Source: an uncultured Clostridia bacterium
Lineage (GTDB): Bacteria; Bacillota; Clostridia; Christensenellales; Borkfalkiaceae
Length of the DNA stretch: 64,000 nucleotides
Assembly: GCA_944368155.1 (NCBI GenBank)
Contig: CALVWW010000002.1
Coordinates: 62,001 to 126,000 of the forward strand
Direction: 5' to 3'
Shown here: positions 7,258 through 26,112 of the stretch, one piece after another
Layout: each line of letters begins with the position of its first letter
How positions within the stretch are numbered: position 1 is the stretch's first letter
Notes under the pieces: model-generated
Seen by the model: only the letters and a program-made list of their open reading frames with translations
The model's database searches: none
Told to the model about the DNA's origin: nothing
Translations under genes and position numbers: made by a program

Positions 7258-7368
7258 GCGGGCGGACGCGCCGTATATTTAATGCGGATATGGCGCGGGC
7301 GGACGCGCCGTATATTTAATGCGGATATGGCGCGGGCGGACGCGCCGTATATTTAATGCGGATATGGC
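7258..7368 (+). repeat. Tandem 37-bp repeat, three copies, carrying the tRNA 5' end
   Basis: Copies at 7258-7294, 7295-7331 and 7332-7368 look identical by eye. Each unit ends in GCGGATATGGC, the first 11 nt of the host tRNA-Leu; the third copy's end is the tRNA itself. Each unit also holds a GGCGCG...CGCGCC-type dyad. There are no spacers, so this is not CRISPR. Confidence 0.9.
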
Positions 7369-7400
7369 GGAATTGGCAGACGCGCGGGACTTAGAATCCT
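7358..7400 (+). pseudogene. 5' half of host tRNA-Leu(UAG), split by the element
   Basis: Acceptor 5' strand GCGGATA, D-arm GCGGAATTGGCAGACGCG and anticodon 5' stem plus loop CGGGA-CTTAGAA are present, and the tRNA is then lost. The missing part (TCCCG, variable arm, T-arm, TATCCGC-A-CCA) is found at 26062-26112; joined, the two halves form a perfect cloverleaf. As it stands this half cannot yield a tRNA. Confidence 0.93.
7390..7399 (+). other. attL core
   Basis: CTTAGAATCC, the anticodon loop and 3' stem start of tRNA-Leu(UAG), is repeated exactly at 26062-26071. Strict element ends are therefore 7390 and 26071. The same 10-mer also occurs in the intact tRNA at 7493-7502, leaving a second possible left junction. 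Confidence 0.85.
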
Positions 7401-7460
7401 ATTGCGTAACAAATTAACATAATTTTTAACAAAAAAACTGAAAACTTCACAAAAACCACG

Positions 7461-7543
7461 CTGACATGGCGGAATTGGCAGACGCGCAGGACTTAGAATC
7501 CTGTGATAATCTCGTGCAGGTTCAAGTCCTGTTGTCAGCACCA
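7461..7543 (+). tRNA. tRNA-Leu(UAG), complete, carried by the element
   Basis: Acceptor GCTGACA pairs with TGTCAGC, followed by discriminator A and encoded CCA. The anticodon arm is CAGGA-CTTAGAA-TCCTG (anticodon TAG), with a long class II variable arm and T-arm GCAGG-TTCAAGT-CCTGT. Its acceptor and variable arms differ from the split host gene, so it is not a simple copy. It lies 60 nt inside attL, downstream of the host tRNA promoter, and probably replaces the destroyed function. Confidence 0.95.
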
Positions 7544-7551
7544 ACAAATCT

Positions 7552-7584
7552 CGGGAGAAAATTCACAAATTTTCTCCCGTTTTT
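7552..7584 (+). terminator. Intrinsic terminator of the tRNA-Leu transcript
   Basis: 12-bp stem CGGGAGAAAATT (7552-7563) / AATTTTCTCCCG (7568-7579), loop CACA, then TTTTT. Confidence 0.9.
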
Positions 7585-7593
7585 GTTATCATT

Positions 7594-7612
7594 GGGAAGT
7601 TTTGGGAAGTTA
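7594..7612 (+). other. Candidate integrase arm-type sites, left end
   Basis: Two adjacent direct repeats, GGGAAGTTT (7594-7602) and GGGAAGTTA (7604-7612), lie just past the tRNA terminator and before the integrase stop. The same nonamer recurs near the right end. Confidence 0.5.
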
Positions 7613-7656
7613 AAATTTGTTTTGTTTAGCTAAAAATCGGTTGTTTTGTACTTAAA

Positions 7657-8895
7657 TCACAGTTTGTAGTCGAATTTGTTAATTTCTTTCAACATAAACT
7701 CTTGTGAATAATCGGTGTAGCCTCTGTCAACGCGACTGGTTTTAACATCCGAATCGTACTCATGACCGACCCATTTCATCACGACTTCGCCCGAAATGCC
7801 ACATTCCTTTGCCCTTGTTATAAAGGTATACCTCAGTTCGTGGACGTGCCTTTCGGGGAAAAGATTTTTCATAGCCGACCTAAGACCGTAGCGTTGAACG
7901 GCTCTCGCCTTGTCAAAGTCGATAAGGTGCAGTACTCGTTTGAGCATTGGAGAAACGGGTATTTTCCTTATGACCTCGGCGTGACCTTTTCTCGTCTTTT
8001 CGGAGCGGCAGCTTATGTATGTGCCGTCGTATTCAAGGGTAGTCAGTTCGCCCACTCGCATACCCGTATAGAGCAATACGAGCAGGGCGGAGACGGAATA
8101 CTTGTCGCTGTTGCTCGAGCAGAAGTCGATTAGCTGCTTTTCCTCGGTTAAGGTAAGCGCCTTGCCTTTCTTGACTTCGTAGTGGGCAAGCACGACTTTG
8201 TTCATCGGCGACTTGATGTTGTAGTCGTCGTGTATGACGTCAAAGATTGCAGAGAGCATCTGTTTGAGCTTCTGAGCCGTTCTGTTGTTGCCTTTTTCAG
8301 TCTTCTCGAACAGGAAGTTCTGAATGTGCTGGCGCGTAATTTCGTTTACTCGCATTTTGCCAAACCTCGGCAGCAGGTGCTTTACGGTCATCATCTCATA
8401 GCTTGAATAGGTAGTCTCTTTGATCGTCTGCTTTTTGACTTTTAACCAGTCCTGAACGAAATCAGAGAAGAGGGGGTACTTGTTGTTTTCCCTTTCACTA
8501 ACCGCCTCGGCAAACTTTGCTAAAAATCTTCGTTTCATTGTCTCAAAGTCCTTTGCGGCAACCTCTATGCGGTAGCCGTCGCTGCGGTATCTCGCCTGAT
8601 AGTATCCGTCCTGAGTAATTCGGTATGTAACCAGCTTGTCGTTTATCGTAAATAATCTTTTAATGCTTTCCGGCATTGCGTTAATCTCCTTTCTTGTAAA
8701 TTCGATATAACGACCGTCGCCGTTGCTATTTGCTTGTGCCTTCCTTTCTTCCTTGGCTGTAAGAGTTTTTAACCTCTCCAGCGTTATGCTCTCCGACGCG
8801 GCTTTAAGAATAAGGCTTGTAACCTCGTCTCTCTCGCGTTCGTCGGGAACGTACTTAATTGCGTCTAAAATTCTCTTTAATTCGTTGTCTGTCAT
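7657..8895 (-). CDS. Tyrosine site-specific recombinase (phage-type integrase)
   Basis: 412 residues from ATG 8895; a TTG at 8916 is the alternative, and neither has a good Shine-Dalgarno. The middle holds an SAM-like core-binding domain (about residues 140-225, with KHLLPRFGKMRVNEITRQHIQNF), followed by the catalytic domain. Catalytic residues seen are Arg in TGMRVGEL, His and Arg in HELRYTF, His in WVGHEYD and the Tyr in GYTDYSQEF. It catalyses integration and excision at the tRNA-Leu core CTTAGAATCC. It sits at the left end pointing outward to attL, as is usual for tRNA-targeting elements. The N-terminal 130 residues include a basic arm-binding-like region. Confidence 0.93.
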   Translation of the reverse strand: MTDNELKRILDAIKYVPDERERDEVTSLILKAASESITLERLKTLTAKEERKAQANSNGDGRYIEFTRKEINAMPESIKRLFTINDKLVTYRITQDGYYQARYRSDGYRIEVAAKDFETMKRRFLAKFAEAVSERENNKYPLFSDFVQDWLKVKKQTIKETTYSSYEMMTVKHLLPRFGKMRVNEITRQHIQNFLFEKTEKGNNRTAQKLKQMLSAIFDVIHDDYNIKSPMNKVVLAHYEVKKGKALTLTEEKQLIDFCSSNSDKYSVSALLVLLYTGMRVGELTTLEYDGTYISCRSEKTRKGHAEVIRKIPVSPMLKRVLHLIDFDKARAVQRYGLRSAMKNLFPERHVHELRYTFITRAKECGISGEVVMKWVGHEYDSDVKTSRVDRGYTDYSQEFMLKEINKFDYKL

Positions 8896-9155
8896 TCGGT
8901 ATGCAGCGGTATGCAAACAGAGGGAGTTATTAGCTCGTCCCCGTCATTGCTTGTGCGTACCAGCAAACTGTCTTGCAGTTTGCCAGATCCCGAAGAGTAC
9001 CATTTTTAATTAACTCTATCACAAAATCCTCCTTGTTATTTCCGCAGGGTGGGACTAGGGCAATCGTAAGCCGTGGTGTCAGTCGCTCGGTCACCTTCTC
9101 TCCTTTTCCCGAAAAATCTTGCTGTGCAATCTTTTTCGGGATATGCTGTGGAACT

Positions 9156-9186
9156 GATACAAACCACTTTTGAAGTGGTTTGTATC
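9156..9186. other. Perfect 14-bp hairpin between integrase and relaxase genes
   Basis: GATACAAACCACTT (9156-9169) and AAGTGGTTTGTATC (9173-9186) with a 3-nt loop. No U-run follows on either strand. It lies 40 nt after the relaxase stop, so it may be a 3' processing hairpin, a regulator site or part of the element's recombination region. Nothing else is recognised in 8896-9226. Confidence 0.6.
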
Positions 9187-9226
9187 CTACCATAAAATCT
9201 TTTGAAAAGCAATAGGATTTGGAAAG

Positions 9227-10483
9227 TTATTTGCTCCAACCGTTGCCTGAACTCTTGAAGGGAGTGGAGCGCTTTTCAGTTTTACGCTGCTCGGCTGTTG
9301 CAATCGCCTCTTTCAGCTTGTCCGGCGCTTGCTGTCGTAACTCTCGCAAAGTCTTGGCGTCTTTTTCGAAAGCTTGCCGCTCACGCTCTGCTTTCTGGTA
9401 TAGCTCAAAGACGTCGTGCTGGTCCTTGGTGCTGTATTCAAGCTCTTGCCTTAACCTTGCGTTTTCGGCAGCGAGAACAGGCACGTCGCGCTTGTCGGGC
9501 TTTTTCTTGCCGCCTAAGTATTCTTTTGCAACGTCGGCGGCAGCCTGAAGGGGAGCAACCTCGCGCTGTAATTGCTCTTGTCTTTGTTCAAGCCTTTGCG
9601 CCTCTCTTTCAGCGTGGGCTTGTCTGGCTTCCGCAATGTCCGCCATAAACTTTGTCTGTGTCAGCCTGTCTTCGGCTTCTGCAATATAGATTTTATTGCT
9701 CTTTAATTTGTCGTCTGCTTCGGCAAGTTCGGCTTGCCGTTGCTTCATCTGCCAATCATACTTTGTAGTATGCTTTCTGTTGGAACCGACCTCGCCGCGT
9801 TCCAGCCCATACCGCACGCTTACTCGGTCGTAAAACTCGTCCTGCATATTTCCGTAAGAGTGCTGCCCTCCGCGTTCCGCCCAGAAATCAGAACTGCATA
9901 GCTTTGGCTGCTCTAATTTGACATACTCATAGACTGACTTTCCGTCCTTGTCTTTCAGCTGTATGGGAGAGCCTTTCTCATTTCGTGCAACCTTGCCATC
10001 CTTCATGGCGTAGACCTTCTTTTTAGCTGTGTCAACTAACGGAAGGTAGTAGAGCTGCAAGTGCGGAGTGGTTTCGTCATAGTGAACAACGGCGGAAAGT
10101 ATGTTGGCATCCGTGCCGTGGTAACCTATGCAGTACAGAGCAAATTTGTACGCACTCTCAAAGAAGTCTTTGACCTCCGGCGGCGGAGGGAGACCTGGAA
10201 CATAACCAAGCCGCTCAAAAAACGCGCTGTCGCTGGTTATAATCATTCCCTCGAATGCGACCGAGTTTCCCTTTTCCTTGAACGTTGCGTTCATGGTCTT
10301 CATTGTCCTTTTCCATTGAGCCGTAAGTCCGCCGTCTGACTTTTTGAAATAGAAGTTCAGCGGTGTTCTCTCGCTGTCAATGTTTTCGTTGCGGTTGTTC
10401 TTTGCGGTGCGTTCCGTCTCCCGACCAATGCCGCCCAAATCGCTCTTTTGAAATGATTGTATTCGTACGACTTGATAGCTTAT
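9227..10483 (-). CDS. MobV-family relaxase (Pre/Mob), apparent AUA start
   Basis: 419 residues if read from the non-standard codon ATA at 10483. The family N-terminus (SYQVVRIQSFQKSDLGGIGRE...ERTPLNFYF) is fully in frame from there, with AGGAGG 8 nt upstream. The first standard start, TTG at 10438, would drop 15 conserved residues and has no RBS. The relaxase core holds the metal-binding signature HYDETTPHLQ near residue 133. The second half (about 235-390) is a long charged coiled coil rich in Glu, Gln and Arg. It nicks one strand at oriT and pilots it into a recipient using a co-resident conjugation machine. Confidence 0.9.
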   Translation of the reverse strand: MSYQVVRIQSFQKSDLGGIGRETERTAKNNRNENIDSERTPLNFYFKKSDGGLTAQWKRTMKTMNATFKEKGNSVAFEGMIITSDSAFFERLGYVPGLPPPPEVKDFFESAYKFALYCIGYHGTDANILSAVVHYDETTPHLQLYYLPLVDTAKKKVYAMKDGKVARNEKGSPIQLKDKDGKSVYEYVKLEQPKLCSSDFWAERGGQHSYGNMQDEFYDRVSVRYGLERGEVGSNRKHTTKYDWQMKQRQAELAEADDKLKSNKIYIAEAEDRLTQTKFMADIAEARQAHAEREAQRLEQRQEQLQREVAPLQAAADVAKEYLGGKKKPDKRDVPVLAAENARLRQELEYSTKDQHDVFELYQKAERERQAFEKDAKTLRELRQQAPDKLKEAIATAEQRKTEKRSTPFKSSGNGWSK

Positions 10484-10520
10484 ATTGTGTACCTCCTGAA
10501 ACTTAAAATCTTGTAATTCC

Positions 10521-10600
10521 TATGGCTTAGCGGCTTTGCCCGCATAGCCATATCTCACTAGGCTACAAGTAGCCCAGTTCGCCCTTGCAGGGAGCATATT
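10521..10600 (-). other. Candidate oriT next to the relaxase gene
   Basis: On the minus strand the stem-loop GGCTAC-TT-GTAGCC (10574-10561) is followed at once by TAGTGAG (10560-10554) and then ATATGG. This resembles the MobV nick layout of pMV158, hairpin then TAGTGTG/TTA. A second dyad, TATGGCT (10521-10527) / AGCCATA (10546-10552), abuts it. Position upstream of mob and on the same strand also fits. Confidence 0.5.
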
Positions 10601-10652
10601 TGTTATTTGCTTGTAGTTTTGCTTGCGCAAAAAATTGAGTGGCATATATCCT

Positions 10653-11321
10653 TTAATTAACGGCGTTTTTATAACTTTCCACCGCCTTATAGAGCGATAA
10701 ATTTTGTATGTCTTTATGGGCTTTTACATAGTCATACAGCTTATTTAAATCAACGCCTTCAAGTATGGGATTTTCCGTACTTAAATTGCCCGTGCAGCCA
10801 AGTGCTTTAAGGTCTTCTATTGTTCGCTTAATCGGCTTTGATTTTGCCTTTGCTTTTCCGCCTTTGGAGCCTGCCTTTTTGCGTTCGAGAGATACGTCTA
10901 ACGTAAGCCTTGCAAGCGAATAAAACTTCTCTGCCTGCGGCGGTAAATCTTTTGCGATTTTACCTTCGAATGCCTGCTCGCATATAGCCTTGATATACTC
11001 TCCACCGTCGTTCAAATTCATAAGTTTCAACTTGTCATAGTAGCTTTTCTTAAAGGCAAAATGTCTCCATAATCTGTCGTACTTTGAAGCTTTCTTTCCG
11101 TTCAACTTCTCTTGACGTTGAAGGGAGAGTATGTCCTTTAAATCTGCCCAGATAACATTGAATTTTTGCTCGTCGAAACGGTTGTCTTTCCCCTCGAACA
11201 TATACTCGCAGATGTGGTGCAGCATGCAGGCAATGTCCTCGTTGTTCTCGTCTTTCAACACATTCCAAAACAGCTCATAAAAATTGAATTCTTCTATCGT
11301 CTTTATCTCCTCGGTTTTCAT
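10653..11321 (-). CDS. Element protein with two tandem DUF6291-like repeats
   Basis: 222 residues; function not known. An internal duplication is visible: residues about 12-80 (FYELFWNVLKDENNEDIACM...CEYMFEGK...) and about 90-160 (SYYDKLKLMNLNDGGEYIKA...CEQAFEGK...) share the pattern of aromatic start, acidic stretch, [I/C]C-x-x-x-FEGK, then a helix and a basic GKKASK or GSKGGKAK ending. This pattern recalls DUF6291, found near phage and plasmid replication genes. It lies about 170 nt upstream of the relaxase gene in the same direction, with the oriT candidate between. A role in replication or transfer is a guess. Confidence 0.6.
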   Translation of the reverse strand: MKTEEIKTIEEFNFYELFWNVLKDENNEDIACMLHHICEYMFEGKDNRFDEQKFNVIWADLKDILSLQRQEKLNGKKASKYDRLWRHFAFKKSYYDKLKLMNLNDGGEYIKAICEQAFEGKIAKDLPPQAEKFYSLARLTLDVSLERKKAGSKGGKAKAKSKPIKRTIEDLKALGCTGNLSTENPILEGVDLNKLYDYVKAHKDIQNLSLYKAVESYKNAVN

Positions 11322-11382
11322 AATTTTTTTGTTTTTTTGTGGGCTATCTTACAATCATATATCACATCACCTCCTTGTGGTT

Positions 11383-11606
11383 GCATACCGTTTTTAGATA
11401 GAAAAAGTCCATAGAAAGCTACCTTCCTATGGACTATGATTTTTGTATAAAAAATGTCCAAAAAACGGTATGCTTATAACGCTCTTGTCTATGCGATAGA
11501 ACGCATAGCAAAAGCAACGGTGGGAGTATAAAACTCCACCGCAAACGGCTGAAAAGCCGCTTATTATAAACAGTGATAACTGCCATCGGCTACTGAGCTT
11601 TCGCTC
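11383..11606. other. Hairpin-dense non-coding region
   Basis: Five dyads follow one another. A 13-bp perfect outer stem GCATACCGTTTTT (11383-11395) / AAAAACGGTATGC (11461-11473) encloses AGTCCATAG (11406-11414) / CTATGGACT (11427-11435). Then come CTATGCG...CGCATAG, an imperfect GGTGGGAGT/ACTCCACC, CGGCT-GAAA-AGCCG and CTGAGC-TTTC-GCTCAG. The 11322-12169 gap has no convincing ORF. Candidates are an element replication or transfer origin, or a structured RNA. A further dyad, ATTCTGT/ACAGAAT, lies at 11882-11903. Confidence 0.6.
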
Positions 11607-12093
11607 AGGTCACAGCGCAACAAACAAGTTATTCTTTTGAACCCATCTTCGCAAGCCTCGGCAACGCAAAAACTGCTTGCCGCCAGAACCATAAAAATAG
11701 TGTAGGGGTTTTATCGGAAACCAGACCGCTCGGGTACCGTTTTTTGTCCGCAGAATACCGCCTTTGCGACCGATAGTCGCCAGCCAATTTGTCCGTTAAA
11801 GCCATATAGCCGAACAGTCGCAAACTGCATAAGGCAATGGGAACAGACACATAATTCCTCGTTTCTTACACCGATACGGGCATTCTGTGCAGGCGAACAG
11901 AATTTCCTCCATTCGTCCTAAGCGCATTATAGCATAGCTAAAATGTCCTTGTCAAGCAAAATAGAAACAAATGTTTGTAGAATTAAAGTAAAACTTGTCG
12001 ATATAAGAGCAGCAACATTTCTTATGCTTAAGTAGATTATATGTTGCTGAATATTTTAGGAAATAAGGTTTGGCATTAATTTTTTATTGCGTA

Positions 12094-12122
12094 TAGACAA
12101 AAACAGCTAGCTATGCTAAAAT
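12094..12122 (+). promoter_or_regulatory. Promoter of the CoiA-like/nuclease gene pair
   Basis: TAGACA (12094-12099), 17-nt spacer, TAAAAT (12117-12122); the gene starts 48 nt later. Confidence 0.55.
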
Positions 12123-12169
12123 AAAAGTAAATAAAAGCAAGCTTTTCTTGCGTAATTAAGTGGTATTTT

Positions 12170-13282
12170 ATGGAATATGCTGTTTGGAATGAAAAAATGC
12201 TCTCGGCTACGGAAGTATCAGAAAAATTTGAGTTAGAACGCCAGATTCGATTATTAAGTGAAAGCAAGCAGTTGCGATGTCCTGATGCTGAATGTCAAAA
12301 CCCGATAGTGCGTTACTGCCATGGGGAGAAGAAAATAGCGTATTTTGCTCATTTAAGTAATTGTAGTTGTGATTATGAGCAATTTGACAGAAATAATAGT
12401 TTCGTTTTGCGTGGAGTTAGATTAAAGCTTATGAAATTATTTCAAAAAGCCGGTATTTATGTAAAAGCAGAACAGAAGGTCCTAGCCCATCATTACTGTC
12501 AGTTGTTAATTGGATTATCAGAAAATAACAAGGTTGCTGTTGAGTTTGGAACAGAAAAGACGGATGTTTCAAATATTGAAAATTTAGAAAAAGAGTACAA
12601 TGATAAGAATATAGAGGTAAAATGGATTTTTGTAGGCGATACTCATAACAGTTTAAGAGAGAAAAAACTCTATTATCTTAAGCGCCACTTGCTTAACTGC
12701 ACAGCCAATAAGCAATTTATTATTATAAGTCCAGATTGCGAAAAAGCTGCGCAATATCGTCTTGACGATAACTCATATTTATATTTAGGGGAAAAGGTGA
12801 AAATAACGCCGGACACTGATCTTTATTTCGAGATAAGCGACCTTGAAAATTTAGAATTCACCAATGGCGACTTTTCGTTAAAAGGTTTTAATGAAAGATT
12901 TGATGATTGGCTGCAAAAAAAGCAAGAAGCTTTTAATAAGAAAGTAGCCATTATAGAACAGCATAATAAAGAAGTAGAATCAAGGAAGAGGGAACAGGAA
13001 GAAAAAGAGATTCAGAGAATAAAAAAAGAGGCAAAACAAATTTCTTTTATCAAAAATGATTTTACTTCCGAAGAACGGGTTGATGCTATAAAATATTATT
13101 GTGAGGAGGAAATTCTTGAAAAAATAAATCAGCAAGATGTGCAGGTAAGAGATTCCCGTGGAAGACGATGGATTAGATGCGAGTGCTGTGGCAAAGTTGC
13201 GCCTGCTGATTATTTTAATTCTTACGGAGGACCCAATCGTCTTAATCTCGGTATTTGTGAGGATTGTGCTAAAAAAGGCTGA
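12170..13282 (+). CDS. CoiA-like nuclease with C-terminal zinc ribbon
   Basis: 370 residues. N-terminal region: LRCPDAECQNPIVRYCHGEK followed by KIAYFAHLSNCSC, a zinc-finger pattern typical of the CoiA family (CxxxC...G...FAH). Next comes a PD-(D/E)XK-like core (about 100-150: VKAEQKVLAHH...NNKVAVEFGTEKTD...YNDKNIEVKWIFVG, where E126 would be the acidic ligand). A charged coiled coil (about 255-305) and a final zinc ribbon (CECCG...CEDC) follow. CoiA acts in competence, but on mobile elements this fold is often a defence-type nuclease. It is A+T-rich and co-directional with the next gene 24 nt downstream. Confidence 0.7.
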   Translation: MEYAVWNEKMLSATEVSEKFELERQIRLLSESKQLRCPDAECQNPIVRYCHGEKKIAYFAHLSNCSCDYEQFDRNNSFVLRGVRLKLMKLFQKAGIYVKAEQKVLAHHYCQLLIGLSENNKVAVEFGTEKTDVSNIENLEKEYNDKNIEVKWIFVGDTHNSLREKKLYYLKRHLLNCTANKQFIIISPDCEKAAQYRLDDNSYLYLGEKVKITPDTDLYFEISDLENLEFTNGDFSLKGFNERFDDWLQKKQEAFNKKVAIIEQHNKEVESRKREQEEKEIQRIKKEAKQISFIKNDFTSEERVDAIKYYCEEEILEKINQQDVQVRDSRGRRWIRCECCGKVAPADYFNSYGGPNRLNLGICEDCAKKG

Positions 13283-13306
13283 AACGTGATTTAGGGATAT
13301 TATTTT

Positions 13307-14185
13307 ATGAGTATAGAAAATCCGATATATGATAAAATATACAGAAATTGCTTTAGTATCATAGAGAATTCTTCTGATCGGAACATAAAAAGGAAAAGAG
13401 AAAGATTAGATAGAGAGTATAAGAAATTATGCGAGACTGAAGACTACGAGCGTCAAGAATTTTACAGTATTGTTCATGAACTTCGTTTATACCAGTACAT
13501 CAAAGATTTAGGAATTACCATTATAGCTGCGAATGATAATAACGCAGGTCCTGATTTCGAAACGGGCATAGGGTATATTGAATGTGTGAGTACAACCAAA
13601 GGGGAGCCAGGAACTCCTGCAAGGTTATGCATAGACGAACGACTAAACCAATCGGTGAATCGGTATGTTTCTGCGTTGCCTAGATTGACTAACAGTATTT
13701 CTGAAAAGCTTGAAAGATATAAGTATTATTTAGATAGTAACAAGATTAATAAGAGTAAGCCTCGTATTATTGCGCTTTGCACATCGGTGTTTTCAAATGA
13801 ATTTCATAGCGACTTAAATTTAGACCTTGCACTTAAAATTTTATATGGGATAGATTGCAGAACAATGCGGTTTAATAAAGAAACAAATAGTTTCATTGAA
13901 GAAGCGGACGTGGAATTTCATGCATACAAAGATTTTGCAGTAAAACCACCTAAAAATGCTCCATTACCGCTATGTTATTTCTATAAAGATGAGTTTAAGT
14001 GCATTTCTGGAATAATAGTAAATAACAATGCTATAACAGAAGAATTAACTAAAGATTATTTCTGTCTTTTATTAAATCCATTAGCCGATATACCTATCGA
14101 TAAAACAAAGTTGGAATGTATCAAATACTTTGAACTTGATAGTGTGGACAATAATTATTCGACATTCTGTTGGCGTAACCAATAG
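13307..14185 (+). CDS. Putative PD-(D/E)XK nuclease-like protein
   Basis: 292 residues, no named family recognised. Residues 50-100 contain a restriction-endonuclease-like pattern: HELRLYQYIKDLG (possible helix Glu), AGPDFETG (Asp), YIECVSTTKGEPG (E-x-V with a Lys a few residues on). The remainder is mixed alpha/beta with no membrane segments. It directly follows the CoiA-like gene (24 nt), shares its A+T-rich composition and ends in a bidirectional terminator. The pair looks like a two-gene nuclease module. The nuclease call rests on motif spacing alone. Confidence 0.5.
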   Translation: MSIENPIYDKIYRNCFSIIENSSDRNIKRKRERLDREYKKLCETEDYERQEFYSIVHELRLYQYIKDLGITIIAANDNNAGPDFETGIGYIECVSTTKGEPGTPARLCIDERLNQSVNRYVSALPRLTNSISEKLERYKYYLDSNKINKSKPRIIALCTSVFSNEFHSDLNLDLALKILYGIDCRTMRFNKETNSFIEEADVEFHAYKDFAVKPPKNAPLPLCYFYKDEFKCISGIIVNNNAITEELTKDYFCLLLNPLADIPIDKTKLECIKYFELDSVDNNYSTFCWRNQ

Positions 14186-14203
14186 TGTTAATCAGGCAAA
14201 ATA

Positions 14204-14232: not shown

Positions 14233-14241
14233 TATATATCA

Positions 14242-18195: not shown

Positions 18196-18198
18196 AAA

Positions 18199-19710
18199 TT
18201 ACTCCATAGGTCTAATCATAGACTCAATAAAACTTATTTCCTCGTCGGATAAGTTATATTTACCATAGAGAAACTCATCTGTCAATGGTTTAGAGAAATC
18301 TTGCATAGGGACAAATGAAAATTTGTCTCTTGACAGATTTATAGAAGAAACACATTGCAGCAATAAAAATCTGACGAACTTTGTTTTTAAATATGCAAGT
18401 AAATTTTGTGCATAAATTAGCCTATCGAAATTGCCAATGATAAAGTATGAAAAGGTACAAACTTCTCCTGGTTTAAGTATCTCAATTTTAGAGAAAACTT
18501 TATATTGACCATTTTTATCAGCTTCGCTTGCGTGCTCGGATGTCACTTTGCTAACCATTATTTTATACGCGTTTAGCAAAGCTTTCCCTTGTTTTATCAT
18601 TATCTCTGGGAGATAACCTTTCCCTTGGCTAGAATAAACAGTTATATCTCCATTCGTCGGTGTTTTGTTGCCGCGAATTGATGAGTCTAATCCAAATGGA
18701 TTCAATGAGGATATAATTTCAGAAAGCGAATTTTCTCGCAAAGAACTAACTTTCCTGATTATTTCAATAGCTTCATTGTGTCTTACAAAAACAGGAAATT
18801 CATTGAGCTTTCGTTCCATTACATTAGTGTTTCTGTTATGTATATTTGTAACTTTGCAAATGCCAGGATTATCTCTATCCCAAAGAAAATAACATACTCC
18901 ACCGCCCAAGCTTACGCCTGAAAAACAGTCTTTTGAATTTGTATAATCTACTAAATAGCGGATTCTGTTATCGTTTAGCATTGAGGCTCTAAAAGAATCT
19001 AAGCCCATGCCGCCAGCGTACCATCTGGCAGGGATTATCATTGTTAAATATCGTGGAGATAATTTTTGTGCTTGCTCTACAAATTTATGATAAAGCGGTA
19101 TAGCTTGTGACTTCGTTCCGCCTGTATTTAACTGATAGGGAGGGTTGCCTATGATAACATCAAATTTCATATTAAAGATTTTCTCCGCATTGGTGATATG
19201 AATGAATTCGTATGCGTGCGTTTCAAGCTCTGTGCCGCGGTCATATTCCTTTTGGCTTGCTCCGCAGAATATGCACCGCCCGTCTTTCCATGTGTGGTTT
19301 ATGCGCTTAAATCTGATATTGCCTTCGGCATTTTCAAACTTGCTCACCGAAAACTCGCTGTTGGGGTATTTGCTGCAATATACGCCTCTGCGCGAAAGCA
19401 GGCTTGTCAGTTCGGTTATGGCTATGCCATAAAGTTGCTTGTGGAATATGTGGTCAATTCTCTCCTGCAAATCGGGGAACTGCCGCTCCAACCCTTTAAT
19501 AAGTCGCTTTGCAATTTCACGCAAAAATACGCCCGTCTTGCAGGCAGGATCTAAAAAGGTAGTGTCGGGGTTCTTGAAAAGTTCCTGCGGCAGCATATCA
19601 AGCATTGCATTGACTATCTCCGGCGGAGTGAATACTTCGTCGTTGGAAAGATTAGCAAGGCAGGAGAGGGCGTCGGGGTTATAAACTTTATTAAAAAGAC
19701 TTTCAGTCAT
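18199..19710 (-). CDS. Eco57I-like N6-adenine DNA methyltransferase
   Basis: 503 residues. Motif I is TTFLDPACKTGVFL (about 48-60), with Lys where the family usually has Gly. Motif IV, the catalytic NPPY, is present in FDVIIGNPPYQL (about 186-197). Other landmarks are FTPPEIVNAMLDMLP before motif I, a Cys pair CIFC (possible zinc site) and a C-terminal target-recognition-like region (about 300-490). It should methylate adenine in a specific DNA sequence. Its start overlaps the upstream methylase-like gene by 8 nt. Confidence 0.85.
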   Translation of the reverse strand: MTESLFNKVYNPDALSCLANLSNDEVFTPPEIVNAMLDMLPQELFKNPDTTFLDPACKTGVFLREIAKRLIKGLERQFPDLQERIDHIFHKQLYGIAITELTSLLSRRGVYCSKYPNSEFSVSKFENAEGNIRFKRINHTWKDGRCIFCGASQKEYDRGTELETHAYEFIHITNAEKIFNMKFDVIIGNPPYQLNTGGTKSQAIPLYHKFVEQAQKLSPRYLTMIIPARWYAGGMGLDSFRASMLNDNRIRYLVDYTNSKDCFSGVSLGGGVCYFLWDRDNPGICKVTNIHNRNTNVMERKLNEFPVFVRHNEAIEIIRKVSSLRENSLSEIISSLNPFGLDSSIRGNKTPTNGDITVYSSQGKGYLPEIMIKQGKALLNAYKIMVSKVTSEHASEADKNGQYKVFSKIEILKPGEVCTFSYFIIGNFDRLIYAQNLLAYLKTKFVRFLLLQCVSSINLSRDKFSFVPMQDFSKPLTDEFLYGKYNLSDEEISFIESMIRPME

Positions 19711-20371
19711 TTTCCTGCACTCTCCTGTAATGTGAAATGTATCTCTTCAAAAACTTGCCTTCTGGGTTTTTCTCCTGGTTAAATAAGGACTGCTGCCCGC
19801 CTTTGTCTGGTGCGTTATCTGCAAGCAATTCTTCAAAGGTATAGTCGCACCGCTGCATCGAACTGCCCGTAATGAACGACCATTCCGAAAATACTATTGG
19901 CTCGTCTGTGTCGTTGCCGTTCTCGTCAACGCATTTAAGGGTAAGGGCATTTCCGCATACTATGTTTCGGGAAAGAATAAAGCGCACGGCGTCTCTCGTT
20001 TGGTCGCTACATTCCTTTTTGCAGACGGCGGAGTACTCTTTATTCCAGATTTCAAACATTCTTTTTCGGCAGGCGTCCACATTGTCTTGTAGAATATCCA
20101 CGCCGTATATGCTGGATGCGGCAAGTACGGCATTCTTTTCATAGTCAAGCGGACTTTTGCCGTATTTTTTGCGGACAACTGCAAGTTTGCGAGTAAGTAT
20201 CTCCGCCAGAAAATTGCCGTCGCCACATGCAGGCTCCAAAAATCTGCTGTCTATGCGTTCGGTTTCGTCTTTCACAAGGTCGCACATGGCTTTAACTTCT
20301 CTTTCTGCAGTAAACACCTCGCCATGCTCGCGCACCCGCTCTTTAGATTTTGTCTGGCTTTTCCCTGTCAT
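19703..20371 (-). CDS. Methyltransferase-like subunit M lacking the NPPY catalytic motif
   Basis: 222 residues from ATG 20371; GGAG sits 8 nt upstream, whereas the longer reading frame would run through the operator palindromes. It has the N-terminal methylase hallmark REHGEVFTAEREVKAMCDLV and a good SAM-binding motif I, FLEPACGDGNFL, then YGVDILQDNVDACR. No NPPY/DPPY follows; that position reads IVFSEWSF. It therefore probably binds SAM or DNA without catalysing transfer alone, and may pair with the next gene's product, whose motif I is degenerate but NPPY intact. First gene of the operon. Confidence 0.75.
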   Translation of the reverse strand: MTGKSQTKSKERVREHGEVFTAEREVKAMCDLVKDETERIDSRFLEPACGDGNFLAEILTRKLAVVRKKYGKSPLDYEKNAVLAASSIYGVDILQDNVDACRKRMFEIWNKEYSAVCKKECSDQTRDAVRFILSRNIVCGNALTLKCVDENGNDTDEPIVFSEWSFITGSSMQRCDYTFEELLADNAPDKGGQQSLFNQEKNPEGKFLKRYISHYRRVQEND

Positions 20372-20399
20372 AAAATTTCTCCGTATGTTAATAATTATA

Positions 20400-20435
20400 T
20401 GTGCATTGCACATATTTGTCAATGTGCATTACACA
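20400..20435. promoter_or_regulatory. Two palindromic operators between divergent XRE gene and methylase operon
   Basis: TGTGCA-T-TGCACA (20400-20412, perfect) and TGTGCA-T-TACACA (20423-20435, one mismatch), with centres 23 bp apart (about two helical turns). They lie between the methylase-like start (20371) and the XRE start (20456), as expected for an autoregulating controller protein. Confidence 0.8.
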
Positions 20436-20455
20436 TTTTTGCTAAAATCACGTTG

Positions 20456-20801
20456 ATGGAATTTGGGAAATTTTTTAAGGAATGCCGAAAGCAGAGGGGG
20501 CTATCTCAGAAAGAGGTGGCAAAGCTATTGGACATTCATCAATCGAATATAAGCGACTGGGAGAATAATGTGTCTCGGCCATGTTATGAACTTTTAATTC
20601 AGCTCGCCGACATTTACGAAGTTACCCTATACGACCTTCTGGGGGTGGAGGAAAAAACCTTTCGTTGATGTTCAGGCAGATAGCGGCACAACAGAAAGTC
20701 AGTTAATCTCATTGACTGCCGAAGAGCGTAAATTGTTACAGTATTTCCGCCAACTTTCCCCTAAACAACAAAAAGCCTTAATAGATGTATTTGAAGAATA
20801 A
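20456..20801 (+). pseudogene. XRE-family controller gene with an A-run frameshift
   Basis: From ATG 20456, 70 codons encode a clean HTH (CRKQRGLSQKEVAKLLDIHQ, NISDWENNVSRP) and hit TGA at 20666-20668. In the next frame the coding continues to TAA 20801: FVDVQADSGTTESQLISLTA, then EERKLLQYFRQLSPKQQKAL, then IDVFEE, a usual tail for this family. Removing one A from the six-A run at 20652-20657 restores a single frame of about 114 residues. So the gene is either a truncated allele, a slippage-switched gene or contains a sequencing error. The HTH alone could still bind DNA. It is divergent from the methylase operon and likely controls it. Confidence 0.8.
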
Positions 20802-20804
20802 AAA

Positions 20805-20845
20805 ATTCCACAGGAACACTTTCGTTCCTGTGGAATTATTTTTTA
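20805..20845 (+). terminator. Terminator of the XRE controller gene
   Basis: 13-bp stem ATTCCACAGGAAC (20805-20817) / GTTCCTGTGGAAT (20824-20836), then TATTTTTT. Confidence 0.9.
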
Positions 20846-20892
20846 TAAAATACAATATTTTGTGTTTTTATGAAAAAATAAACCACTACATA

Positions 20893-20921
20893 TTGACAAA
20901 ACAATTAATATTGCGTATAAT
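20893..20921 (+). promoter_or_regulatory. Consensus promoter of the CBASS operon
   Basis: TTGACA (20893-20898), 17-nt spacer, TATAAT (20916-20921): an exact sigma-70 consensus, suggesting strong constitutive expression. The leader is about 38 nt, with AAGGAA before ATG 20965. Confidence 0.85.
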
Positions 20922-20964
20922 TAAAAATGACTATTGTTGTTGTGTTTAAAGTGAAGGAAATTTT

Positions 20965-22431
20965 ATGAGTAATGCAAGTATTGCGGCTAGGCAAAATGGT
21001 GACTATTATCAGGATTTAGTGTTTTGGAATTATGCGTTTCAACTGCTTTTACCAAATCCTGATATTGCTTATGTAAAATATGAAGTCGCTGAGGCAAGTC
21101 CTTGTGATGATGTCGTTGTTATTTACAATAGAAGAATGCGGGAAGAAGATGTAAGTTTTACTTATAGCGTGGATTATATTCAATGTAAGTTTAGAGCAGA
21201 CAGCAGACCGATAAGTTTCATGGATCTCATAGATCCAAATTGTTTTCACAACACAGAGTCTTTTTTGCAGAGAGCTTATAAATTTTATAAAGAACAAGAT
21301 AGTTCGGATTTAAGAATTGTTTTGGTTACATCTTCGCTAGCCGACAGTAAGGATCCTATTTTAAGTAAATTAAATGGGGTTAATAGTGCGTTACTCATTG
21401 ATAATTTATTTAATGTAAAACCAAGAAAATCAGTAGATACAATTTTAAAAGCTGTATTGGAACATCTCAGAATAACACTCGATGAGCTAAAAGATTTTCT
21501 TACTCGTTTGCGTTTTAGACTAGGAGAGAGCATAGAAAAAGTTAAGGCTAATATGAGAATTAACGCCAAAGCTGTAGGGGTTGATGCTGGAGGTGCTTCT
21601 TTGGGAGAAGAGCTGACATCAGTTCTCAGGCAATTTAATTACTCAAAGCAAACGGATTTTAATGCTCAAACTATTAAGCAGATTTGTACTAATTGCAATT
21701 GGTTCTTTAACAGTAAAAAAATAATAGGAGTAATAAATTTCAATAGGAAGGATGACAGGGCTAATAAAATATTGTCATTGGGAGATAATGCTTTAAATCT
21801 TATTTCATTTTTCAATGACAGAATAATAAAACCTGAATGTACTTGGGACGAAGTTAAACAAACTATATGTGATTTTGTGGATTTACATATTAAACATGGA
21901 GACCGGTATCTGTTTAGATTATCCGCAATTAACAGCGTGTGTTTTGCTTTTGGTAAAAAACTTGGTTTAAAAACGGCAAGTATTTCTTTTGAAAACCGTG
22001 AAGGTGTTTTTGCTGAAGAGTTCTGCGAAACCTCTGATACTATGGAAAGAATTACTGTTGAGGAATACGGCGATACTTTTCAGGCTGATAATGCTGTGGT
22101 AAGTGTATCATTTGCTGATAGTATTTTTGATGATGTGAATGAATATATGAAAGGACATTTTTCTTCTTATTCGTTGCTTAATTTTTATTGCAGTGATTCT
22201 CATGTGTCAAATAATAAATTCTGGGTTTATATTTCTGGGATGGCTAAAGATATAAAAAAATGGATAAAAAAAGTTAAACCAAATTGTGTACATATTTTTT
22301 ATCGTGGACCAGTAGAGGGCATTTTTGTCTTAGGACAATACGCTCCCGAATGGGGCAAATGTGTATGCTATGATTACAATTTTGGCGCAGAAATCCGTGA
22401 GCAGCGTTATATGTCAGGAATAGAATATTAA
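20965..22431 (+). CDS. cap4: CBASS effector: Cap4-like nuclease (DUF4297-type) with SAVED domain
   Basis: 488 residues. The N-terminal domain matches Cap4/DUF4297 dsDNA endonucleases: DYYQDLVFWNYAFQLL, VKYEVAEASPCDDVVV (D48/D49) and DYIQCKF (Q73-x-K75), a PD-(D/E)XK active site. The C-terminal region (about 330-488) has the SAVED signature ending CVHIFYRGPVEGIFVLGQYA then PEWGKCVCYDY, the fold that binds cyclic oligonucleotides. Known Cap4 proteins degrade DNA non-specifically when a cyclic trinucleotide binds SAVED. First gene of a four-gene operon, 20 nt ahead of the cyclase gene, which matches CBASS order. Very A+T-rich. Confidence 0.88.
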   Translation: MSNASIAARQNGDYYQDLVFWNYAFQLLLPNPDIAYVKYEVAEASPCDDVVVIYNRRMREEDVSFTYSVDYIQCKFRADSRPISFMDLIDPNCFHNTESFLQRAYKFYKEQDSSDLRIVLVTSSLADSKDPILSKLNGVNSALLIDNLFNVKPRKSVDTILKAVLEHLRITLDELKDFLTRLRFRLGESIEKVKANMRINAKAVGVDAGGASLGEELTSVLRQFNYSKQTDFNAQTIKQICTNCNWFFNSKKIIGVINFNRKDDRANKILSLGDNALNLISFFNDRIIKPECTWDEVKQTICDFVDLHIKHGDRYLFRLSAINSVCFAFGKKLGLKTASISFENREGVFAEEFCETSDTMERITVEEYGDTFQADNAVVSVSFADSIFDDVNEYMKGHFSSYSLLNFYCSDSHVSNNKFWVYISGMAKDIKKWIKKVKPNCVHIFYRGPVEGIFVLGQYAPEWGKCVCYDYNFGAEIREQRYMSGIEY

Positions 22432-22451
22432 AATTAAAAAGGAGTTCGTGT

Positions 22452-23531
22452 ATGGAATGTGTATCAGCTTTTAATGACTTTGTTAAAAATATAAGTTTAA
22501 CAGACGAAATGAGACAGATATTAAGTAGTGCGTATAAAAAATTAAAAATTGATTTAATGTCTGATCCCATAGGGAAACAAATAATAACTATGTTTTTACA
22601 AGGTAGTTATGCCCGGCATACGGGCGTGCGTCCTATTAACAACGATGATAAATTGGACGTGGATTTGATTGTCGTAACTAAATTTGATAGTAATAAGATG
22701 TCGCCAATTGAGGCGTTGAATGCCTTTAAGCCTTTTCTTGAAAATACATATAAAGGAAAATATGATTGCAGGATACAAGGCCGTTCTATTGGTATTGATT
22801 TTAAGAATTGTAAAGTTGATTTGGTTCCGACTGCGTTACCTACTCAATCTATGCAATTACTTTTAAATGAAGCTTTTTCTTCTGAAGAATATGCAGAAAA
22901 ATTTTATGATTCCCAAAAAACGATTGATACTATAAGAGCATATTTTAATAGAGGTGACGAGTGGAGAAGCAATCCGCTAAAAATACCAGATAAAGAGGCG
23001 AATAAATGGGAAGATACCCACCCTCTAGCGCAAATTGATTATGCTCAAAAGCGCAATGCTGAGAAAAATGGGAAGTTTTTACCGTTGGTGCGTATTTTGA
23101 AGTGGTGGAAGAAAAATGATTGTGCAGATATTGAAACAATTAAAAGTTACCCTTTAGAGCATTTTATAGGAGATTATTGCGGTGAAGGGGATAAAGTATC
23201 ACAATTGTTGGTATCGACATTGGAGAATATTGTTTCCAATGCTCCACCTATAAAACCTTATTTAATGGATAGAGGTGTCCATACGCATGATGTTTTTCAG
23301 CGAGTAACGCAGGAAGATTATACAAAATTTCTTGCACGTATTAAGAAGTTGCATGAATTATCAGATGATGCTCTCGCTGATCAAGATTATGTTAGCAGCA
23401 TGAAAAAATGGCATGAAATTTTTGGGGATAAATTCCCTGTTCCTGACGATGATGGGCATAGTGAACAAAACTCGCGGTTTACTCCTCGCACAAGTCCATC
23501 TGAACCCACAAAACCAACAAGGTATGCATAA
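22452..23531 (+). CDS. CD-NTase (cGAS/DncV-like nucleotidyltransferase)
   Basis: 359 residues. The nucleotidyltransferase core shows GSYARHTGVRP (51-61), the metal pair D69-V-D71 in KLDVDLIVV and the third acid D123 in CKVDLVP. A helical C-terminal domain follows (about 140-310). The last 30 residues are polar and end in PTRYA, a disordered tail plausibly used for conjugation by the neighbouring Cap2. The pattern is closest to clade D enzymes that work with Cap4, but clade is inferred. It makes a cyclic di- or trinucleotide on phage infection. GGAG precedes ATG 22452, and the stop abuts the cap2 start. Confidence 0.92.
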   Translation: MECVSAFNDFVKNISLTDEMRQILSSAYKKLKIDLMSDPIGKQIITMFLQGSYARHTGVRPINNDDKLDVDLIVVTKFDSNKMSPIEALNAFKPFLENTYKGKYDCRIQGRSIGIDFKNCKVDLVPTALPTQSMQLLLNEAFSSEEYAEKFYDSQKTIDTIRAYFNRGDEWRSNPLKIPDKEANKWEDTHPLAQIDYAQKRNAEKNGKFLPLVRILKWWKKNDCADIETIKSYPLEHFIGDYCGEGDKVSQLLVSTLENIVSNAPPIKPYLMDRGVHTHDVFQRVTQEDYTKFLARIKKLHELSDDALADQDYVSSMKKWHEIFGDKFPVPDDDGHSEQNSRFTPRTSPSEPTKPTRYA

Positions 23532-25283
23532 ATGCATGATATTGAAGAATTACAAAAAATCAGACGAATTATTGATGCTTTTAAAGAGTATGAATTAATT
23601 GAAGACCTTTATAAAATTGATAATAATTATTGCTTAAAGGTAAGGATAACTATAAACGGAGAAGGAAGTGTATATGTACCTAAGAGCAGTGACTGGTATA
23701 TTGTATTTGATGGAAATGATGTTGATTTTTATCCTTCAAATACAAATAGCATTACTGCTACATTCCAACATCAAGCATTAAATGAACTTAAGGAAAATTT
23801 GCCGTTTCGTTTAGGTAAGCCATGTTTGGATACTCCGTCAGATTCGTTGTATTTACCATCAAGCCATTATTCTGAGCCTTTGACTGGAAAAAAGTTTTAT
23901 TGGTATTTGCAGCGCATGTTAAAATGGCTTGATGATGCAGCACAAAACAAACTAGTTAAGGCTGGCGACCAATTTGAATTACCGGTAGTACCATATAATA
24001 TAAAGGAAATACTTTTATATAAAGAAGGGCAAATTTCAGACTGGAGTGATTTTAATGCTGACTGTGGATATGCTTACCTTAAGAATTTAACTTTAGCAAA
24101 TAGAAAATATTTAGTGCTGGATAAAATATTTGATAAAACAACAACCAAAACATGTAGTGCCCCTGAATGGGGAAGTTTAAAAGAAGATTTCAGGGGAAAG
24201 GTTCTTGCTGCATGGATTAAACTGAAAGATCTACCTGTTATTAAACCATGGCAGTATCCTAAAACATGGGAAGAACTTGTTGATGCTTGTCATAGGCAAA
24301 ATATTTCAATAGAAAGGAAAATGGCTGGTCTTTTAAATAAAAGGCTCGGAAAAATTTCTAACTTGCTATTAGTTGCTCCTATTCCAGAAAGAATTGGAGA
24401 CCAACCTAAATCATATTATTGGATGCAAATAATTTTACCTGCAATAAATTTTCCTTGTAAAGGATTTCGTAACAGTGTAGATGGACTATTACATTATTTG
24501 AAAGCTAGAGCGCTTAAAGGCCCATTATTAATTGGTGCTACACAGAATTGTGATGATGCTGCAATAAGAACAAGGGGGTCCGTGGATAAAGTCATCAAGG
24601 AATTAAATTTCTGTGTGATTGGATGTGGTGCTTTAGGATCTATGTTGTGTGAATCTTTAACAAGAATGGGTATAAAGAATTTGCATATTATAGATAGTGA
24701 TTGCGTAAATATTGGCAACCTTGCGAGGCACATTTCAACGCTTGACGATATTGGCGAATTTAAGACTGAATCATTAATTAAAAGGTTAGTAAAAATTAAT
24801 CCCTCAATTTTGCTTTCAAGTTCCGCAGAAGAATTATCGCAAAATAATGTTGATAAATTATCTGGTTATGATGTAATTATAGATTGTACAGGTAATAATT
24901 CTGTGGTATCAGTTTTACAAAAATGTACTTATAAAAGTAATAAAACTTTTTACATAGGGGCATTTACTTACGGTGCAAAAAAATTCTGTTATTACAGATG
25001 TGTGGGAAATACACTTGATGGTGAAGCGTATTTTAGGAAGACCTTAGAGTTTTTTAATAGCGCAGTTGAAGGATTAGGTGAAGGAGAAATGGCTTGGGAA
25101 GGAATAGGATGTTATCATCCAGTATTTCCAGCAATGTATTCAGACGTATCGGTTTGGGCGAATATTTTTGCTAATGAGATAATTAGTAATCTATTTAATA
25201 GCGAAGAAAAGCTTATTAAGTATTACAATAAAACGACTAATTCGGGTATAGAAGTTGTGGTTGACAATGATTTTTCGTTATAA
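23532..25283 (+). CDS. cap2: CBASS Cap2: E2-E1 fusion that conjugates the CD-NTase
   Basis: 583 residues. The N-terminal E2-like domain (about 1-155) includes the likely catalytic Cys98 (RLGKPCLDT), followed by YWYLQRMLKWLDDAA...FELP, as in prokaryotic E2 proteins. A linker leads to the E1/ThiF adenylation domain (about 355-583): nucleotide-binding VIGCGALGS (362-370), IIDSDCVNIGNLARH and DVIIDCTGN. Type II CBASS uses this enzyme to attach the CD-NTase C-terminus to targets, priming the cyclase. Its start directly follows the CD-NTase stop, and the Cap3 gene overlaps its end by 17 nt. Confidence 0.92.
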   Translation: MHDIEELQKIRRIIDAFKEYELIEDLYKIDNNYCLKVRITINGEGSVYVPKSSDWYIVFDGNDVDFYPSNTNSITATFQHQALNELKENLPFRLGKPCLDTPSDSLYLPSSHYSEPLTGKKFYWYLQRMLKWLDDAAQNKLVKAGDQFELPVVPYNIKEILLYKEGQISDWSDFNADCGYAYLKNLTLANRKYLVLDKIFDKTTTKTCSAPEWGSLKEDFRGKVLAAWIKLKDLPVIKPWQYPKTWEELVDACHRQNISIERKMAGLLNKRLGKISNLLLVAPIPERIGDQPKSYYWMQIILPAINFPCKGFRNSVDGLLHYLKARALKGPLLIGATQNCDDAAIRTRGSVDKVIKELNFCVIGCGALGSMLCESLTRMGIKNLHIIDSDCVNIGNLARHISTLDDIGEFKTESLIKRLVKINPSILLSSSAEELSQNNVDKLSGYDVIIDCTGNNSVVSVLQKCTYKSNKTFYIGAFTYGAKKFCYYRCVGNTLDGEAYFRKTLEFFNSAVEGLGEGEMAWEGIGCYHPVFPAMYSDVSVWANIFANEIISNLFNSEEKLIKYYNKTTNSGIEVVVDNDFSL

Positions 25284-25731
25284 AAATATATCAATTAGCT
25301 TAGATGAAGAATTATACAAAGATTATATTTCGAATCATTTAAAAACAAGTAATACTGAGACAGGGGGGATAATTTGTGGATATTACTCTTCAGATTTAAC
25401 TTCTGCTGTGGTTACAAAAATGTGTTTGCCGACTCCTGATTCAATATTAAAGCAAGCATCATTTCAAAGAGGCGTTCAAGGTTTAAAAAACTTCTTGAAA
25501 AACGAGTGGGATGATGGAAAATATTATTTAGGTGATTGGCATTTACATCCTAATGCATCACCTATTGCAAGTAAGCAAGATCTAATGCAGTTAGAAAATA
25601 ACGCAAAAGATAAGACATTAAAATGTCCAGAGCCTATAATGATTATTTTAGGTGGGAATAAAAATTGTATAACTGTAAATATTTATCTTTTTATTGATGG
25701 CGACATAAAAGTTTGTGAAAGAGATTTATAA
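25267..25731 (+). CDS. cap3: CBASS Cap3: JAB/JAMM deconjugating protease
   Basis: 154 residues from ATG 25267 (an in-frame TTG at 25255 is the alternative). JAMM zinc-protease signature is complete: E31 in NTETGG, then GDWHLHPNASPIASKQD with H92, H94, S102 and D105. In type II CBASS this enzyme removes the conjugated CD-NTase and so antagonises Cap2. It ends the operon, and the next 330 nt are the element's non-coding right end. Confidence 0.93.
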   Translation: MIFRYKNISISLDEELYKDYISNHLKTSNTETGGIICGYYSSDLTSAVVTKMCLPTPDSILKQASFQRGVQGLKNFLKNEWDDGKYYLGDWHLHPNASPIASKQDLMQLENNAKDKTLKCPEPIMIILGGNKNCITVNIYLFIDGDIKVCERDL

Positions 25732-25755
25732 GTAAAGTAAGAGCATTAAAATTTC

Positions 25756-25798
25756 AAGCATAGCGGCGCGGCGAGAGATTCGCCGCGCCGCTATGCTT
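25756..25798. terminator. 19-bp perfect GC-rich hairpin after the CBASS operon
   Basis: AAGCATAGCGGCGCGGCGA (25756-25774) / TCGCCGCGCCGCTATGCTT (25780-25798), loop GAGAT. It is far more GC-rich than the surrounding DNA and has no U-run, so it may terminate poorly. It may instead insulate the element end or stabilise the CBASS mRNA. Confidence 0.6.
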
Positions 25799-25820
25799 AT
25801 AATTCGGTAAAAATAACTTT

Positions 25821-25928
25821 GGGAAGTAATTGGAATTTTTTGTCAAAGATTTTTGCTTGTTTTTGAAAGGTTTTGGGAAGTTAAAGGAAGCGGGGGCACA
25901 AGCTGACAACAAACGGCGAGGGAAGTTA
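25821..25928 (+). other. Candidate integrase arm-type sites, right end
   Basis: GGGAAGTAA (25821-25829), GGGAAGTTA (25875-25883) and GGGAAGTTA (25920-25928), plus a weaker GGAAGTAG at about 25931. They share the nonamer found twice at 7594-7612 and have the same direct orientation. Confidence 0.5.
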
Positions 25929-26061
25929 TTGGAAGTAGTGTTTTAAACTACTGAGTTTTGAGCTGTTTCAGGCTGTTTTTACCTTGTTTTTGCCTGAAAT
26001 CAAGCAATTTTAATTTGCCTTGTCGTCCTGTTGGTGAGGACTGAATTTTCATAAATTATGC

Positions 26062-26112
26062 CTTAGAATCCCGTGGGCAACCGTGCAGGTTCAACTCCTG
26101 TTATCCGCACCA
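26062..26112 (+). pseudogene. attR core and 3' half of host tRNA-Leu(UAG)
   Basis: Core CTTAGAATCC (26062-26071) continues into CG (end of the anticodon stem), a variable arm, the T-arm GCAGG-TTCAACT-CCTGT, acceptor strand TATCCGC, discriminator A and CCA. These pair exactly with the 5' half at 7358-7400. The half has lost its promoter to the other side of the element. Confidence 0.93.

Follow-up and report, generated by a model that had tools for sequence, protein, structure and literature searches.

The principle of transfer RNA (tRNA)-dependent lysogeny is already known from actinobacteriophages (Fionnbharth, cluster L, Gaia; Guerrero-Bustamante and Hatfull 2024, PMC10865867). As set out there, cores of 8–17 bp do not rebuild the host tRNA, and a phage tRNA of the same isotype was required experimentally; the Fionnbharth tRNA and gene 37 overlap on opposite strands, the promoter of that tRNA has been tested, and entry of a second copy into the carried tRNA is raised as a speculation. 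The same source describes prophage Lj965 of Lactobacillus johnsonii as one that does not rebuild its tRNA and encodes a cognate one. Here we describe a window, that is, a 64,000-nucleotide (nt) stretch of an uncultured gut Clostridia bacterium (Borkfalkiaceae; contig CALVWW010000002.1), in which a mobile element splits a tRNA-Leu(UAG) gene and carries a complete one. It is likely that this integrative mobilizable element destroys the host tRNA-Leu at a core in the anticodon loop and supplies a promoterless replacement behind the host promoter.

Like the actinophages (PMC10865867), the element combines a tyrosine integrase, an attB in a host tRNA gene, a short core that does not rebuild it and a carried tRNA of the same isotype. 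It differs from them in its carrier, a mobilizable element with a relaxase, resident in Clostridia, rather than a phage, and in its targets, which are Leu UAG, UAA and, at one locus, CAA. The tRNA lies 60 nt from the core, in the attachment arm, with no visible promoter, unlike that of Fionnbharth; the need for a tRNA is experimental in the actinophages and putative here. Second entry into a carried tRNA, a speculation for the phages, is seen in the Clostridia elements. Lj965 shares with the element its phylum (Bacillota) and a cognate tRNA, but is a prophage. Conventional tRNA islands (Islander, PMC4383910) likewise use a tyrosine integrase and a tRNA target and displace a fragment to the far end, but rebuild the host gene at one junction, whereas the element here replaces it with a separate whole gene. 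New are the mobilizable non-phage carrier, the promoterless tRNA in the attachment arm and serial stacking; our literature search, with subscription journals mostly outside its coverage, found no title or abstract opening describing tRNA-replacing mobilizable elements or Clostridia cases.

The tRNA features of the window are as follows.

7208–7236, + strand: host tRNA promoter-like site (TTGACA-17-TAAAAT, 11/12), probably now driving the element tRNA
7358–7399, + strand: 5′ half of the split host tRNA-Leu(UAG) gene, with the core as its last bases
7390–7399, + strand: left core CTTAGAATCC (attL), the anticodon loop plus three bases
7400–7459, + strand: element spacer, AT-rich, with TTAACA/TTCACA-like repeats and no sigma-70 match above 5/12
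7460–7543, + strand: complete replacement tRNA-Leu(UAG) (ARAGORN; Rfam tRNA, 60.1 bits)
7552–7579, + strand: intrinsic terminator downstream of the replacement tRNA
26062–26112, + strand: right core (26062–26071, attR), with the 3′ half of the split host tRNA-Leu(UAG) gene

The splitting of the host tRNA and the presence of a complete element tRNA, both claimed in the original prediction, are confirmed. The two 10-bp cores are 18,672 bp apart, and the 10-mer has three sites only in the 1.73-Mb assembly (both cores and the element tRNA). Joining 7358–7389 in silico to 26062–26112 yields a single tRNA-Leu(tag) by ARAGORN, with 7/7 acceptor pairs and 5/5 anticodon-stem pairs; the gene is truly cut, its halves 18.7 kb apart. 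The element tRNA starts 60 nt past the left core on the same strand and differs in sequence from the host tRNA, matching it at 72/84 aligned positions. G+C content is 39.0% within the element versus 50.6% outside. The repeats of the spacer might, at a guess, be integrase arm sites. A separate 37-bp repeat stands in three perfect copies at 7258–7369, between host promoter and tRNA half, each copy including the first bases of the tRNA gene.

Relatives with an empty site, sought as the original prediction had proposed, support replacement. Two members of the same genus (G002 and G015) hold a single intact tRNA-Leu(UAG) adjoining the same ABC-transporter gene, and in neither do two such genes stand side by side. 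The G002 tRNA departs from the rejoined host tRNA only at positions 3 and 77, a compensated acceptor pair. In a further genome, G103, a closely similar copy of the element, its integrase 97% identical and both of its ends read, occupies a different tRNA. Similarity spans 7358 to 26116, with main blocks 90–95% identical; unshared cargo lies at 11977–14104 and, except for one 113-nt stretch, at 17152–19020. The two host tRNAs are alike at 73/83 positions and the two element tRNAs at 83/84; one element thus sits in two differing host tRNAs with a near-identical tRNA of its own, and the complete tRNA therefore travels with the element, whose transfer the G103 copy suggests. Two other loci, L312 (G104:C6) and L206 (G102:C4), have a carried tRNA and spacer nearly the same as those of the window. 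A frame resembling the window relaxase lies past the tRNA in L206 and past the host 3′ half in L312, and no integrase of the same family is listed beside either tRNA.

To gauge how widespread the layout is, we screened 93 genomes of the genus for the 5′-half pattern, using two slightly different patterns for two parts. The layout—half gene, spacer, next copy—occurs as 42 units at 35 loci in 29 of the 93 genomes; 37 loci were taken up, of which G060:C10 (contig end) and G010:C205 (outside the pattern) gave no unit, and G100:C2 and G100:C7, identical over the tRNA region, may be one locus counted twice. The loci end in a complete tRNA-Leu, and carried and split genes have the same anticodon in 42/42 units. 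Spacers measure 41–104 nt and fall into several types, not alike among loci. The targets are Leu UAG and UAA, with CAA at one locus cut by a contig end. A stricter pattern gave matches in 41/301 family genomes (6/18 genera), with no hit for a reversed-pattern control. Among its 51 rows, 49 units could be read: the first position lacked a complete tRNA in all 49 and the second held one in 43, the other six being contig ends or inner stack members. In an even sample of 391 class genomes, including 5 other genomes of the family and 13 of the order, the layout was found only in the own genome, by a narrow pattern that covered only Leu UAG/UAA with certain spacings.

First copies reach an edit distance of at least 4 in 8/49 units and second copies in 0/49, a comparison biased because only the second copy had to contain GGCAGAC, and therefore not used as evidence of decay. 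Among the eight decayed first copies, the one in G466 is attP-like and some others (G959, G104:C13) are unrecognisable as tRNA halves. Locus L260 (G466:C4) runs right end, core, spacer, complete tRNA with no 5′ half, as at an attP-like junction. In another genus of the family (L235, L238–L241), the 5′ half before the first core is decayed or unrecognisable and the next copy intact.

The spread of the layout also bears on whether the locus is an assembly artefact, or a tandem tRNA duplication followed by deletion. An assembler might be misled by the roughly 30 nt common to half and full gene, and the draft has 31 contigs. The recurrence in 41 family genomes with no reversed-pattern hit, the presence, in each of two hosts, of the host 3′ half at this element's far end and the one gene in each of the two empty sites read all argue the other way, and because G103 carries the same element in another tRNA we reject an explanation that was in any case barely credible. 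Given the empty sites, the same element in two host tRNAs and the recurring layout, replacement of the host tRNA, as opposed to its restoration, is well supported by these comparisons.

Conventional restoration can be judged at the left junction. There, attL does not rebuild a tRNA from host 5′ and element 3′ sequence: the bases past the left core are not a tRNA 3′ half, ARAGORN finds none there and the true 3′ half lies at 26062–26112. The tRNA is rebuilt at neither junction of the window, which pairs a tyrosine integrase with an attB in a tRNA gene and a 10-bp core, as in tRNA-dependent lysogeny. With no tRNA formed at attL and the 3′ half at the far end, restoration is refuted for this element, and we regard it as exceedingly improbable. 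Its support comes from integrases related to that of the window. Those beside tRNA-Gln(CUG) adjoin a single 5′-half motif (21/21 loci), with a second Gln 5′ motif in 0/21 Gln loci, and at one locus, L092, a complete Leu(UAA) stands with no half gene; for these reasons restoring relatives probably exist.

In the integrase tree (53 of 54 integrases entered; L217 was too short), a supported group of 25 rows comprises elements beside tRNA-Gln(CUG) and contains no replacing element, with one more Gln row (L219) outside it. The tree does not establish the replacing Leu rows as one group, and L092 looks restoring yet lies inside a replacing group. The UAG-targeting L084/L085 are sister to UAA-targeting rows (97/91) and the UAG-targeting L098 lies within another, weakly supported group with UAA rows (84/83); in L084/L085 and L098 the carried tRNA follows the target. 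Some integrase genes are themselves disrupted: in L183, L184, L196 and L197 (4/4 relatives read) the gene is interrupted at about codon 365, and a large serine recombinase (Pfam) is the neighbouring gene in the two cases checked (L201, 10296–11993; L203, 3191–4393), which suggests that the integrase gene is the target of a second element.

The arrangement suggests how the replacement would be made and expressed. The tyrosine integrase would recombine at the 10-bp core in the anticodon loop of the tRNA-Leu gene; as this core is too short to rebuild the host tRNA, integration destroys it, as sequence comparison shows. The attachment arm carries a whole tRNA gene with the same anticodon, on the same strand and 60 nt away from the core, and integration sets this apparently promoterless gene behind the host tRNA promoter. 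Host half, spacer and new tRNA would most likely be co-transcribed as far as the element terminator, and RNase P could release the new tRNA from the joint transcript.

Consensus scanning of 7080–7680 on the + strand gave the site at 7208–7236 as the sole promoter-like site and 7552–7579 as the sole terminator. Promoter-like sites in the scan numbered 2 against 1.7 expected in shuffles, so the site at 7208–7236 is not significant alone, but a similar one, TTGACA-17-TATAAA, lies in front of the orthologous tRNA of G002, which is intact. In the comparison of loci, 12/32 upstream regions (160 nt each; three of the 35 loci had no upstream sequence) contain a best sigma-70 match of at least 10/12, versus 0/42 spacers. 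Since good sigma-70 matches are found upstream of some half genes and not in the spacers or the element's right end, capture of the host tRNA promoter by integration is the best reading. The hijack that the original prediction proposed fits what is seen in the window, namely the only promoter-like site before the host half, a terminator after the element tRNA and a spacer at 5/12, with capture itself inferred.

Acceptor stems offer a reason for carrying a whole gene rather than a 3′ half. In 39 of the 42 units (3 are cut by contig ends), the host 5′ acceptor would form 7/7 pairs with the element 3′ strand in 11/39, and the replacement's own acceptor does so in 39/39; host and element acceptor sequences are identical in 9/39. 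A half gene would therefore often yield a defective hybrid, and by these pairing counts a whole gene may permit entry into hosts with other acceptor stems.

Several observations weigh against this mechanism. In 16/39 units the split halves can still form five local anticodon-stem pairs (G-U counted), but no T-arm or 3′ acceptor follows. No 10/12 match occurs within 160 nt in 20/32 upstream regions, several of which sit behind other tRNA genes, and 6/42 spacers reach 9/12. With completeness at 94.9% and tRNAs for some amino acids missing from the draft, a second Leu(UAG) could sit in a gap, and Leu(AAG) and Leu(CAG) are also present in the genome, a redundancy in CUN decoding that leaves the need for Leu(UAG) unproven.

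The promoter results could be taken to mean that the replacement tRNA is transcribed from a promoter of its own in the spacer or element, as in Fionnbharth, making the host promoter unnecessary. The tested promoter of that phage tRNA (PMC10865867) and the six spacers at 9/12 lend this some weight, as does the scan's use of a sigma-70 consensus only. It is nevertheless unlikely: none of the 42 spacers reaches 10/12, their mean score equals that of shuffles (6.98 versus 7.05), the window spacer stands at 5/12 and the last 160 nt of the right end give 7/12 at best.

Whether the carried tRNA is needed at all is a separate question. Searching the genome for another tRNA-Leu(UAG) found no further complete one among the 33 tRNA genes of the draft; the only one is the element's, at 7460–7543. 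Leu(AAG) could read CUA if A34 becomes inosine. A34 tRNAs here include Leu(AAG) and Pro(AGG) beside Arg(ACG), which suggests wide inosine decoding. CTA makes up 6/609 Leu codons in 14 host open reading frames (ORFs) and 22/372 in the element's own genes. These counts, with the presence of Leu(AAG) and Leu(CAG), suit the notion that the carried tRNA is a passenger, in which loss of Leu(UAG) is harmless because the other two cover CUN and the tRNA serves element translation or resists tRNA-cutting defences. Such a role is unlikely. The carried anticodon is that of the split gene in every one of the 42 units (although the core sequence is part of both), 22 of 24 sampled genus mates keep the Leu(UAG) loop 11-mer, 21 of them with one copy, and the same layout replaces Leu(UAA), the sole UUA reader among the tRNAs found, whose single complete copy ends the stack on contig C10. 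As the only UUA reader, Leu(UAA) is essential under the decoding rules. Of the original prediction that the element replaces an essential tRNA, the replacement stands; essentiality follows for Leu(UAA) and is unproven for Leu(UAG) with Leu(AAG) and Leu(CAG) present. The interpretation as a whole is thus partly supported, promoter capture fitting the sequence.

Replacement by a gene that itself retains the core has a further consequence, because later elements could then enter in turn and stack half genes. Three consecutive 5′ ends (two halves and a last complete copy) occur in G000:C10 (own genome, Leu UAA), G100, G099 (twice), G069 and G108. A later element entering an earlier replacement tRNA would leave the missing 3′ half at its own far end, followed by the terminator and integrase of the earlier element; this order, the far-end 3′ half and then the earlier element's sequence, is seen in relatives. 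On G918:C2, an element with a complete tRNA and integrase at 288 kb lies downstream of a tRNA 5′ half (GCCACTG). The 3′ half that matches it (CAGTGGC) lies at 308 kb with another integrase after it, both junctions being on one contig. G093 has a 3′ half 19 kb into the locus, then a fragment of another integrase and, 14 kb beyond, a second 3′ half; it reads as an element inside a tRNA already occupied by another. For G100:C2, two half genes but a single 3′ half were found, a pattern that the later loss of one of two similar elements through recombination would produce.

In the own genome, a second element set lies at tRNA-Leu(UAA) (G000:C10:32367–34148 and G000:C4:127678), with stacked half genes. 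At C4:127678 lies an orphan 3′ half with terminator sequence of the element type after it and a remnant of an integrase at C4:127238–127405; matched to the leading half gene of the C10 stack, this 3′ half forms 7/7 and 5/5 pairs. As the contigs are not joined in the assembly, the C10–C4 link is an inferred one. Entry of later elements into the spare tRNAs of earlier ones is thus shown by junctions in relatives and indicated, for the own genome, by two separate contigs. We lean towards a tRNA relay, in which each element destroys the resident tRNA-Leu and seizes its promoter with a promoterless replacement that integration alone activates and that becomes the next target; half-gene arrays would record the integrations, and the only readers of some leucine codons would become mobile DNA. 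Both the Leu(UAG) and Leu(UAA) genes of the own genome appear to be of this relay kind.

The remaining genes of the element are given below.

7657–8916, − strand: tyrosine integrase, 419 amino acids (Pfam Phage_int_SAM_3, Phage_int_M, Phage_integrase)
9227–10438, − strand: Mob_Pre/MobV-like relaxase (Pfam above cut-off; NCBIfam MobV 89 bits, cut-off 100)
14242–20422, − strand: restriction-modification-like genes (T5orf172/ResIII protein, HEPN_Apea protein, Eco57I-type and MmeI-type methyltransferases)
20965–25731, + strand: operon resembling a cyclic-oligonucleotide-based antiphage signalling system (CBASS), with SAVED effector, SMODS cyclase, E1/E2 (ThiF) and JAB

Pfam scanning of 15 element ORFs (smaller ones lay outside the scan) found no phage structural family and no secretion-system family. 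With an integrase and a relaxase and no secretion-system family in the scanned ORFs, the element is best called an integrative mobilizable element; the relaxase and the lack of phage structural families set it apart from a temperate-phage carrier. Searching viral contigs, with a reach of close relatives only, gave no stretch matching the integrase peptides. Two viral matches to the tRNA pattern were set aside: L264, a phage tRNA cluster of intact genes in another arrangement, and L263, whose first core lies, by eye, outside a tRNA half. The best match among phage records is an inovirus integrase (L208; PQ006185.1, bajarodino virus 12), 35% identical, with the best coverage and no tRNA beside it, which hints at filamentous phages with related integrases. 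All plasmid matches to the integrase fall below 60% identity. Elsewhere in the window, the minus strand at 47838–60461 holds a reading frame of 4207 amino acids.

These elements extend the actinophage principle to non-phage mobile elements of uncultured Clostridia. They suggest why a whole tRNA is carried, since a match to the host acceptor stem is no longer needed, and add a feature open to experiment, namely that expression would depend on capturing the host promoter. They also offer natural examples of tRNA genes interrupted in the anticodon loop, close to the position at which certain archaeal tRNA genes are divided. Genome annotation should expect half tRNA genes adjoining complete ones, and the elements show a route for horizontal turnover of chromosomal tRNA genes.

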